64,000 nucleotides of DNA from contig NZ_BSDR01000001.1 of assembly GCF_027925305.1 (NCBI RefSeq), forward strand, positions 895,001 through 959,000. The letters are read 5' to 3'. Source of the stretch: Desulforhabdus amnigena (GTDB taxonomy: Bacteria > Desulfobacterota > Syntrophobacteria > Syntrophobacterales > Syntrophobacteraceae). The translations under genes and the position numbers were made by a program. Positions 6,473-60,290 of this stretch are shown here, piece by piece. The notes under the pieces were generated by a model. That model was given only the letters and a program-made list of their open reading frames with translations. It did not search any database and was not told where the DNA came from. How positions within the stretch are numbered: the first letter of the stretch is position 1; each line of letters starts with the position of its first letter.

Positions 6473-6500
6473 TTGCCTTTTTCTATTTAGAGTTTATTTT
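6473..6500 (+). promoter_or_regulatory. Possible sigma-70 promoter of the cold-shock gene
   Basis: TTGCCT and TATTTT separated by 16 bases, about 150 bases before the cold-shock start codon. It would give a leader of roughly 140 nt. Only a loose match to consensus. Confidence 0.3.
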
Positions 6501-6538
6501 AAATCCCTAAAGAAAAGGGGTTCGATATGTAGGGTTAT

Positions 6539-6585
6539 ACGAGGAATCGGTCTTTCGCCTTATAGAGCGGTTTCAGGGTAGCTCG
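6539..6585 (+). promoter_or_regulatory. Conserved cold-shock leader element, copy 1
   Basis: The block AATCGGTCT...CGCCTTA...AGAGC...GGTTTCA here matches, with small indels, a block at 21224-21270 upstream of the other cold-shock gene. In both places it lies about 60-110 bases before the start codon, probably within the 5' untranslated RNA. Long structured leaders that change fold with temperature are known for enterobacterial cspA; equivalence is inference. Confidence 0.5.
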
Positions 6586-6647
6586 AAATAACGCGCCAAG
6601 AAGAGAAGTGCAGGTTGTAAAGAACACAGTTGAGAAAGGATTTAGAA

Positions 6648-6848
6648 ATGGCGGAAGGTCGAGTAAAGTGGTTCAATGATCAAAAGGGTTATGGTTTTAT
6701 CGAAGCCGATTCTGGAAAGGATGTCTTTGTTCATCATACTTCCATCCAGGGTCAGGGTTTCAAGTCTTTGAGCGAAGGTCAAAGGGTGGCTTTTGATGAA
6801 GAGCAAGGCGCTAAAGGGCCTCAGGCGGTTAACGTGAGGAAGCTTTAG
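6648..6848 (+). CDS. Cold-shock domain protein (CspA family)
   Basis: Small cytoplasmic single-stranded nucleic-acid-binding protein, an RNA chaperone type. All 66 residues form one cold-shock domain: RNP1 KGYGFIE and RNP2 DVFVHHT are intact, and the C-terminus [10 protein letters not shown] is typical. The start [10 protein letters not shown] is set by AAAGGA upstream and by the paralogue at 21326; an in-frame TTG at 6630 would add six residues and is unlikely. It has its own leader element and terminator, so it is probably monocistronic. The closest relative in the window is the second cold-shock protein, differing mainly in the middle of the domain. Confidence 0.96.
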
Positions 6849-6885
6849 TCGATATATTCTTTAGAATCTTCAGTATGCAATGTGA

Positions 6886-6916
6886 AGCCGAGGCAGGTCC
6901 TCGGCTTTTCTGTTTT
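6886..6916 (+). terminator. Rho-independent terminator of the cold-shock gene
   Basis: Perfect AGCCGAGG / CCTCGGCT stem with a 5-base loop, followed by a T-rich tract, 38 bases after the stop codon. Confidence 0.85.
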
Positions 6917-21000: not shown

Positions 21001-21223
21001 TAAAGATAGAAATCAAACCAAAGGTATGACGGTAAGAGGAGAACAGTAAAACTCATTGAACCAAATTGCCCTCTTCAAACCACTCGGCACTGTTCAATAA
21101 CGTCCCGATAAGCGCATGTGTATTGAGAATGCTTACATTTTTCTGTTGCATTTTGCATTAGAAAAGGCTAAAAAATTTAACTATAGTTATATAGCGAGTT
21201 GGGCCTCATTTTTGGACTCTGTA

Positions 21224-21270
21224 CACGAAATCGGTCTCGCCTTAGAGCTAAACGGTTTCAAAGTCCCTCT
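21224..21270 (+). promoter_or_regulatory. Conserved cold-shock leader element, copy 2
   Basis: Shares AATCGGTCT-CGCCTTA-GAGC-GGTTTCA with the leader at 6539-6585. Relative to the start codon the distance is similar (about 55-100 bases). Outside this block the two upstream regions are not obviously alike, so the block is likely under selection. Confidence 0.5.
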
Positions 21271-21325
21271 TTAATGGCTGTCCCGACAAGCAGCAGGTCA
21301 ATGAGTCAACATAAGGAGAAGGAAT

Positions 21326-21529
21326 ATGGCGGAAGGCCGAGTAAAGTGGTTCAATGAGAAGAAAGGCTATGGTTTTATTGAAACAGATGCTCAGGGCGAC
21401 GTGTTTGTCCACTATAGTGCTATCGATGGCTCCGGGTTCCGTACCCTTGCTGAGGGGGAATCCGTTCGATTTGATGTGGAACAGGGTTCAAAAGGGCCTC
21501 AAGCGGTCAATGTAAAAAGGCTACAGTAA
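21326..21529 (+). CDS. Cold-shock domain protein (CspA family), second copy
   Basis: 67-residue single cold-shock domain, RNA/ssDNA-binding. RNP1 KGYGFIE and RNP2 DVFVHYS are intact. It differs from the 6648 gene product mainly at [20 protein letters not shown] versus the corresponding segment, and is otherwise nearly identical, so the two are recent or constrained paralogues. AAGGAGAAGGAAT before the ATG is a strong ribosome-binding site. Own leader and terminator, so likely monocistronic. Confidence 0.96.
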
Positions 21530-21577: not shown

Positions 21578-21608
21578 AAGGCCGGAATCTCCGGCCTTTT
21601 TGTTTTTT
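21578..21608 (+). terminator. Rho-independent terminator of the second cold-shock gene
   Basis: Perfect AAGGCCGGA / TCCGGCCTT stem with a 3-base loop, then a T-rich tract, 48 bases past the stop codon. Confidence 0.85.
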
Positions 21609-58770: not shown

Positions 58771-60290
58771 AGGTATCCCAAGCTCTTAAGTTGGTCCTCA
58801 ATTTCACTTTTTTCAGACTCCGCCTTTTCTGGTTGAGGAGTGAAATTAGCTGCAGAAAATAGATCAGAACATTCTTTTTTGGGCATTGGATCAAAAGCGA
58901 TATCCTGCAAATCCATTATGGTATTAGGCACAGAAAATATATTTGCAGGCATTTCAAAATCATCAAGGCTTTTATCCATTATTATAATTCCATCTTTATG
59001 GTGCATTCCTACCTGTTGTTTCAAAACGATTGGGGGTTCAATAAAAGACTTCCCACTGGGAATAGTACCTATGGCCTTGATTCCATTAGAAAATACTATC
59101 TTATAAACAGCATTTCCTCGGCCTTCTACCTTACTGATCTCATTCACAATTCGTTGCCCCTCTGGATCTAGGATCAATTCAATTTCCCCAAGAACTTTTT
59201 TCACAACTTCTTCTGAATTATTAATAAAATGGGCAAAAGCAATATTGGTAGCATTTGTTTCCACAAATACGGTAGATTTTTCATAGTTTATTACTGAATT
59301 CAAAAACTGATTGGTAGCATTTTCAGATTTTCTACTATATTTAATTGAAGATCTATATTTATATAAAAGTGGAAGATCAAAAACTTTCTTAATACATGAT
59401 ATTAATAGTCTCTTAATATCCTTATTTAACACCAAATAGCCCTTTTTAAAAAGCCAATTATTGATTTTAATATTATATATACACCTCTGAAATCCATGAT
59501 CTGAGAGTATTATTATTGAAAATCCTTTTTCTCTTCCTTTTTTAATGAGAACAGATAAATCTTTATCTAAATTTGCATAAAATTTAGCGACCTTGTCGAA
59601 ATCCTCCACAGTATGTTGAGGGTCTGAAGGGTCGATACAGTGCCAGAGATAATGCTGGACGACATCAGTCTCCTGAATATGAACCATAAAGACATCCCAT
59701 GGTTCCTTCTCCAAGAGATATCGGGCGAGCCGAGTCTTTTGCGACATCGTCTTCATCCATCGGGATACCATATCCTCGATCTTCATTCCCATTTCACTGG
59801 CGCCTATACCACTCTGCATGACCTCGAAATCTGGTATCTTTTCAAATAGTTCACTCTTAAATTCTTCCGGGAAGGTGAATTCCGTCTTTGAGGATGGAAC
59901 AGGAAATCCTGATACAAGAATGCCATTGATTGGAAAGGGGGGATAGGTTAAAGGAAGATTCAAAATACAAACTCTTTTTTTGTGTTCAGACAATATATCC
60001 CAAATACGCTTTACAGAAAGATTCGTTGAAAAAAGAATATTGCTTTGAAATCTTCCATCTTTCATTTGAAGTTCTTTGAACCCCAAAACATGATGGTCCT
60101 CGGGCGATAATCCTGTTTGAAAACTTGTCCAAGCGGAAGGAGTTATGGGAGGTTCGGTGGAGGTCAACACTTGAGCACGGCCATTTTCTATCTCAGCTTG
60201 AAGTGTTGGCATGTGACCATGTGCAATCATGGTATTTAAAATAGTCCATGAGGCACCGTCCAGCCCGATCACCATAGTTTTCTTAGCCAT
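58767..60290 (-). CDS. Alkaline-phosphatase-superfamily phosphodiesterase-like enzyme, A
   Basis: 507 residues. Seen: TMVIGLDGASWTIL (D11, metal), PPITPSAWTSFQTG with T50 as likely nucleophile, HVLGFKEL and IIILSDHGFQRCIYNIKINNW (metal ligands). This is the type I phosphodiesterase/nucleotide pyrophosphatase group of the superfamily. No signal peptide, so probably cytoplasmic. C-terminus EKSEIEDQLKSLGYL carries the LGY tail shared with two neighbours. AGGAGC upstream of the ATG. It overlaps the GT2 gene and leaves 1 base to the Wzx gene. Substrate unknown; a phosphodiester in a sugar nucleotide or lipid-linked intermediate is possible. Confidence 0.83.
   Translation of the reverse strand: MAKKTMVIGLDGASWTILNTMIAHGHMPTLQAEIENGRAQVLTSTEPPITPSAWTSFQTGLSPEDHHVLGFKELQMKDGRFQSNILFSTNLSVKRIWDILSEHKKRVCILNLPLTYPPFPINGILVSGFPVPSSKTEFTFPEEFKSELFEKIPDFEVMQSGIGASEMGMKIEDMVSRWMKTMSQKTRLARYLLEKEPWDVFMVHIQETDVVQHYLWHCIDPSDPQHTVEDFDKVAKFYANLDKDLSVLIKKGREKGFSIIILSDHGFQRCIYNIKINNWLFKKGYLVLNKDIKRLLISCIKKVFDLPLLYKYRSSIKYSRKSENATNQFLNSVINYEKSTVFVETNATNIAFAHFINNSEEVVKKVLGEIELILDPEGQRIVNEISKVEGRGNAVYKIVFSNGIKAIGTIPSGKSFIEPPIVLKQQVGMHHKDGIIIMDKSLDDFEMPANIFSVPNTIMDLQDIAFDPMPKKECSDLFSAANFTPQPEKAESEKSEIEDQLKSLGYL

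Follow-up and report, generated by a model that had tools for sequence, protein, structure and literature searches.

A family-wide leader RNA of cold-shock genes in Syntrophobacteraceae-like bacteria, with a conserved block usually complementary to the csp start

Cold-shock mRNA leaders in model bacteria

Control of csp genes through the leader of their own mRNA is established in a few model bacteria. How do these leaders work? In Escherichia coli at 37 °C, the cspA mRNA forms a long helix between its 5′ UTR and the coding region, a form that the ribosome can access less well (PMC9947658). The Staphylococcus aureus cspA leader contains a 32-bp helix; RNase III cuts it, and as a result the mRNA is stabilised and its translation raised (PMC3386247). 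The proteins encoded by such genes also have sequence preferences of their own. For Bacillus subtilis CspB, a review reports a preference for d(GTCTTTG/C) and a crystal structure with GUCUUUA (PMC7825780).

Here we analyse a stretch of 64,000 nucleotides from Desulforhabdus amnigena (the window), in which two csp genes start at 6648 (csp1) and 21326 (csp2). The original prediction, made from the letters of the window, was that both genes are preceded, 60–110 bases before their start codons, by a block of about 45 bases with the same words in the same order, set in dissimilar surroundings and pointing to a selected RNA or DNA element, for instance a cold-responsive leader in a lineage for which few such leaders have been described. 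Is this block real, how far does it extend, and what could it be doing in front of a cold-shock gene?

The shared block and its hairpin

The common words (AATCGGTC, TCGCCTTA, AGAG/GAGC and CGGTTTCA) are present in identical order in both copies, at 6545-6575 and 21229-21260, and the predicted distance holds, with intervals lying 109–63 nt (copy 1) and 102–56 nt (copy 2) upstream of the starts. The pattern AATCGGTCN{0,3}TCGCCTTA has exactly two matches in the window (6545 and 21229) and none in 100 window shuffles. Local alignment of the csp1 and csp2 upstreams scores 22, which is reached by 0 of 2000 shuffled pairs (maximum 20); as one of 271 other window tiles, an AT-rich stretch (tile at 59368), also scores 22, the alignment score alone is merely suggestive and not decisive. 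That the block is real is settled by the identical words, along with the evidence from paralogous genes and from the relatives described below. What had been underestimated is its size. The shared block forms the upper part of a more extended structure, an imperfect hairpin close to the presumed 5′ end of the csp mRNAs (6519-6597 and 21198-21287). The surroundings had been called dissimilar, and the hairpin arms have indeed diverged between the copies, yet these arms belong to the element. The features of the two loci are as follows.

csp1 locus
6473-6500, + strand: possible csp1 promoter, TTGCCT (6473-6478), 16-nt spacer, TATTTT (6495-6500); read from the sequence, weak and missed by the promoter scan
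6519-6597, + strand: csp1 leader hairpin with helices GGU/GCC, CG/CG, UAU/AUA, GGGUUAU/GUAGCUC, GGAAUCG/CGGUUUC and UCU/AGA; single-sequence fold and 32-row consensus fold
6548-6559, + strand: CGGUCUUUCGCC, the block with the highest conservation, which includes GUCUUUC and is antisense to the csp1 start; letter counts in 61 members
6634-6640, + strand: csp1 Shine-Dalgarno-like GAAAGGA; from the sequence
6648-6848, + strand: csp1, cold-shock protein of 66 aa, locus L004; PF00313 match and translation
6650-6661, + strand: block target in csp1, GGCGGAAGGUCG, i.e. the G of AUG and codons 2–5; 12/12 pairs with the block
6884-6908, + strand: terminator-like hairpin 3′ of csp1; terminator scan

csp2 locus
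21159-21187, + strand: csp2 promoter-like TAGAAA-17-TATAGT; promoter scan
21198-21287, + strand: csp2 leader hairpin, of a subtype with outer stem GUUGGG/CCCGAC; single-sequence fold
21232-21241, + strand: conserved block as found before csp2, CGGUCUCGCC, with two U fewer than the csp1 block; from the sequence
21326-21529, + strand: csp2, cold-shock protein of 67 aa, locus L003; PF00313 match
21328-21339, + strand: csp2 start region, GGCGGAAGGCCG; 12/12 complementary to the csp1 block, with its own block through a 2-nt bulge
21578-21598, + strand: terminator-like hairpin 3′ of csp2; terminator scan

The csp1 hairpin has a single-sequence folding energy of −25.6 kcal/mol (z −2.0) and scores 81 bits against our covariance model R2, of which this copy is itself one row. 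For the csp2 hairpin the fold is −22.7 kcal/mol (z −0.72), the nhmmer E-value of 4e-10 comes from a profile in whose seed this leader sat, and R2, which was not trained on it, gives a weak partial match (18.0 bits, E 0.013 over 19 kb). This subtype, marked by an extended outer stem (GUUGRG/CCCGAC) with AAGC or GAGC after it, was seen in L017, L054, L134, L136, L169, L181 and at 21198-21287 of the window.

How widely is the element distributed? Five short csp genes are present in this genome, along with a single longer protein that contains a cold-shock domain. A sequence profile matches all five short genes, at about 150–40 nt upstream, and leaves the longer one without a match; all five were in the profile seed, so their E-values are partly circular. 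R2 contains three of the five leaders, which match it strongly, and matches the remaining two, L001 (20.4 bits, E 0.0032 over 19 kb) and L003, weakly and at the right place. The wider sample comprised 185 distinct upstreams, of which 173 precede short csp genes and 12 precede genes for longer proteins with a cold-shock domain, taken from this genome, 30 relatives and named contigs (the best 80 of 577 matches). These derive from 195 loci, after omission of nine duplicates or near-duplicates and of L184 (32 bases); three short csp matches at contig ends and five longer-protein matches lie outside the sample. At E ≤ 1e-3 the iterated profile places the element in 61 of the 173 short-csp upstreams and in 0 of the 12 longer-protein upstreams, with matches spanning about −161 to −26 relative to a point close to the start codon; divergent versions, such as those of L148 and L180, fall below this cut.

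The covariance model tells a similar story. With R2 at E ≤ 0.1 the element was found in 19/19 same-family genomes and in 1/12 other genomes of the order. Among the 31 genomes there were 52 hits, 50 of them located 31–58 nt before a cold-shock domain match on the same strand and the remaining two being reverse-strand echoes of true sites, with none elsewhere. A family search with R2 at E ≤ 0.01 found the element in 26/26 genomes. More than half of the short csp genes in the family genomes (49/82) have an R2 match. In a phylum-wide sample with stricter filters, R2 matched 8 of 395; six of these are from the same family, and both matches from other families have a csp gene directly 3′ of the element. 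The leader is thus conserved across one Syntrophobacteraceae-like family, whose members are sulfate-reducing or syntrophic. We are highly confident that it is a genuine leader RNA of csp genes, present throughout the family as a leader of its own and without a match in Rfam where tested.

The consensus hairpin consists of 27 pairs broken by mismatches and internal loops, and most of 54 single sequences (judged by eye), together with both window copies, fold into this common long hairpin. RNAalifold returned no pairs on the full 54-row alignment; on 32 rows hand-picked from the 54 for good alignment, it recovered the hairpin from a sequence-only alignment. In the hand-picked rows 83.0% of the cells are paired, compared with 33.7–50.4% when the partner is slid by 1–3 columns, and of 500 shuffles 4 reached the observed number of double-change cells, 16 the covariation score and 87 the number of pair types. 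Fitting to the model gave an alignment of 59 matches, 3 being echoes from the reverse strand; biased towards the modelled structure, it has 82.5% of its cells paired versus at most 47.6% when slid; double changes occur in 19/27 pairs, a number reached by 1/500 shuffles, and no shuffle in 500 reached the paired share or the covariation score. For 24 sequences outside the training of R2, 486 of 601 cells are paired.

Do these pairs belong to an RNA or to a DNA palindrome? Within-column shuffles of 56 rows lead to an expectation of 100 A-C and 264 G-U cells, against 72 and 253 observed. A-C mismatches are therefore avoided and G-U pairs are not, which favours RNA; the G-U share is the value given by the column make-up, so the G-U count alone is no proof. 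The prediction of a selected RNA or DNA element can accordingly be narrowed. An RNA leader is supported by family-wide conservation, by the fixed place before csp, by pairs kept through compensatory changes and by A-C cells being fewer than G-U cells, and we favour the view that the element acts as RNA. Its folding stability is unexceptional, the mean z of members being −0.92, compared with −1.02 and −1.00 for other csp upstreams and −0.32 for 11 controls. The best −10-like hexamer starts 53–45 nt before the AATCGG anchor in 39/61 members; this clustering suggests that the hairpin probably begins roughly ten bases into the mRNA.

Complementarity between the block and the csp start

When the csp1 leader is folded together with its coding start, the most conserved block pairs with the start. 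The interaction between CGGUCUUUCGCC (6548-6559) and GGCGGAAGGUCG (6650-6661) comprises 12/12 pairs, G-U counted, and within the + strand of the window the block has 12/12 targets nowhere but at the csp1 and csp2 starts; on both strands the target pattern has a third match, the block itself on the other strand, with 1.18 matches expected by chance. Across the 61 members, which were recruited through the block itself, the mean duplex energy is −15.45 kcal/mol, compared with −8.85 kcal/mol for shuffled block letters and −13.89 kcal/mol for swapped starts (0/5000 swaps as low; like all our swap tests, this one is inflated by kinship among the non-independent sequences). Fifteen later leaders, found by the model with a csp start after each and including L213, a duplicate of L046, average −15.33 kcal/mol versus −8.77 for shuffled blocks. 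In 11 of these 15, at most 2/200 shuffles do as well; for L221 and L224 the pairing is no stronger than with shuffled blocks (49/200 and 75/200). Over 75 members 796 of 900 block:start cells are paired, 51 members have at least 11 of the 12 pairs, and row swaps, subject to the same inflation, reach the observed paired cells in 8/1000 and the observed double changes in 3/1000 cases. Sliding the block by up to 4 columns against the start leaves at most 56.8% of the cells paired (first 61 members). The start is also the best target of the block within the gene in 18 of the 26 members with a full coding sequence. Where the codon before GAAGG is altered, matching block changes are found in L040/L047, L222, L179, L134 and, with an indel, L181. 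In L148 and L180, whose upstreams fall below the profile cut, the leader nonetheless stays complementary to a changed start (TTTTTCACC with GGTGGAAGG and CGCCTTTTCGCC with GGCGGAAGGGCG, respectively); both were chosen by their pairing and hence carry no weight as evidence.

Covariation in favour of the block:start pairing is mixed. Of 27 members with a deviating start, 14 have a block that pairs with it better than the consensus version would, and 13 have one that pairs less well. Most of the ACG/ACU carriers and the CCG/UCG subgroup have no compensation in the block, and a C-A mismatch at the first base of codon 2 is found in 8/75 members, one of them the mis-anchored L144. Swap tests were not significant on the gapless columns of the 61 members (154/2000), on the 15 later leaders (472/2000) or for the number of pair types in the 75 members (272/1000), and neither was the codon 4 wobble site (Fisher p 0.23). 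In this genome, block:start pairing is absent in L001 and partial in L002. The predicted probability of block:start pairing averages 0.45–0.49 at 10–50 °C, with L003 and L004 shifting in opposite directions, and equilibrium folding of the leaders, examined with the suggested cold response in mind, gives no consistent temperature trend.

Other shared or start-complementary csp upstreams came to light in the same sample. Five loci from another family of the same order (L022, L025, L026, L143 and L146) have in common a different csp leader; in L022, L025, L026 and L143 the leader sequence CGGTCTTCC is complementary to the csp start GGAAGGCCG (p 0.02–0.15 each). This leader may represent a remote variant of the same principle. 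In L076 and L078 the upstream CCATTTGTCAA is complementary to the start ATGGCAAATGG, which alone is not significant (p 0.07–0.09). Among upstreams without the element, shared sequences define further clusters, for example one of ten loci, mostly on Gammaproteobacteria or Proteobacteria contigs (L063, L079, L080, L081, L101, L103, L104, L105, L114 and L115), and one of six loci (L041, L048, L049, L053, L056 and L058). Such clusters in other lineages are possibly additional unlisted leaders.

A candidate switch, its rivals and the known systems

What might the block do? The computed results are that the element is conserved and fixed in position, that its hairpin shows compensatory changes and that, in most members, the block is complementary to the start; the mechanism that we propose is as follows. 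The mRNA probably begins roughly ten nucleotides 5′ of the hairpin, which is long and imperfect with about 27 pairs, the start site being placed there by the promoter-like hexamers. CGGUCUUUCGCC, in the 5′ strand of the hairpin top, has two possible partners, one within the hairpin and the other formed by its own start codon plus codons 2–5. If the hairpin folds first during transcription, the start would stay open; pairing of the block with the start would close it. In the cell, the two structures would alternate and thereby control translation, with the balance between them shifted by temperature, ribosomes or Csp protein as the presumed trigger. We put the probability that the block:start pairing is a working translation switch, in the manner of E. 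coli cspA, at about one half. A block matching the start of its own gene makes a concrete candidate switch, and leader and first codons may be tied together in evolution. As the csp2 start, too, is complementary to the csp1 block over its full length, leaders could act on several csp mRNAs. We consider it rather unlikely that such a start-codon antisense switch also acts across paralogues, with leaders or processed fragments closing several csp mRNAs. If it did, the csp set of the cell would be one RNA-linked feedback network, and the matching changes in several lineages would mean that leader and first codons evolve as one unit.

The main rival gives the same letters to a protein. Under Csp autoregulation, a Csp would bind single-stranded GUCUUUC at the hairpin top and feed back on its own mRNA. 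The CspB consensus is also given with G/T rather than G/C at its end. In the form d(GTCTTTG/C) it is resembled by the block, as is the crystallised GUCUUUA (PMC7825780); the aligned place holds GTCTTTC in 22/61 and ATCTTTC in 14/61 members, and the window Csp is similar to CspB chains of solved structure (3pf4 among the entries). A Csp site would also account for the stronger conservation of the block relative to the hairpin strand opposite it. However, the heptamer is predicted to be mostly paired (mean unpaired probability 0.19–0.24 in 55 members), E. coli CspA prefers a loose YYR motif (PMC9947658), and the 112 short-csp upstreams without the element have no excess of GTCTTT (2 versus 5.9 expected). 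We rejected GTCTTT as a general signal of csp leaders elsewhere, since no such signal is present in other lineages. Autoregulation by itself seems to us possible but doubtful, and Csp binding may combine with the start-pairing switch.

The remaining readings concern the helix, the ribosome-binding site and the DNA. Could the hairpin simply be a 5′-terminal stability or RNase III processing element of the S. aureus cspA type, where the helix governs decay and ribosome access and start pairing is secondary? The layout would be similar, with a few unpaired bases, a long helix and then the ribosome-binding site; this genome has an RNase III gene, and promoter-like hexamers lie shortly upstream of the hairpin in 39/61 members. 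Such a function leaves the conservation of the top strand and the match to the start codon unexplained, and the helix is disrupted by mismatches and internal loops; we hold it to be unlikely. Quite improbable is a simple RNA thermometer or anti-Shine-Dalgarno element gating the ribosome-binding site by temperature. The block does pair with Shine-Dalgarno regions better than letter-shuffled blocks (0/200 shuffles; 55 of 61 members), but own and swapped regions pair equally well, and the predicted Shine-Dalgarno accessibility barely shifts, from 0.48 at 15 °C to 0.55 at 37 °C. Shine-Dalgarno pairing was rejected as a specific function given the equivalence of own and swapped regions, and a thermometer by equilibrium folding given the absent trend. 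An operator or inverted-repeat protein site in the DNA close to the promoter would fit a partly palindromic element whose models weakly match its reverse strand, but few A-C and many G-U cells, the pairs that change in a compensatory way and a location 3′ of where transcription likely starts speak against it. This candidate was disfavoured by pair counts and position, and we regard it as very improbable.

Returning to the start-pairing switch and the leader that would carry it, how do they compare with described systems? Rfam 15 gave no csp-leader match in the window at the gathering threshold (copy 2 was examined at this threshold only), none for copy 1 at E up to 10, where two chance snoRNA matches appeared, and none for 6 relatives at E up to 1, where one chance microRNA match did; the Rfam family of the E. 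coli-type cspA leader is named cspA. The E. coli cold box is TGACGTACAGA, and as an exact word it occurs in 0/61 leaders. The literature searched, mostly at the level of abstracts, contains no account of such a csp leader in the Syntrophobacteraceae-like family, which together with the Rfam result agrees with the prediction that such leaders are little described.

The E. coli cspA leader is likewise a csp-gene leader, and the complementarity of 5′ UTR to coding region is strong here, with covariation that is mixed. Unlike in E. coli, a short 12-nt block is predicted to pair with the start codon, and equilibrium folding has no temperature trend. In S. aureus a long helix lies near the 5′ end of the csp mRNA with several unpaired bases before it and the ribosome site after it (PMC3386247), an arrangement that the leader described here would share. 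That helix is an almost perfect 32-bp one in a different lineage, compared with the 27 interrupted consensus pairs found here, and the available text on S. aureus cspA does not mention a start-antisense block (PMC3386247). By sequence, GUCUUUC at the hairpin top is a candidate site, near the consensus reported for CspB (PMC7825780); here the letters sit in a strand with weak pairing and correspond to the start codon as well. By the features tested a member of neither group, the leader resembles those of E. coli and S. aureus in outline.
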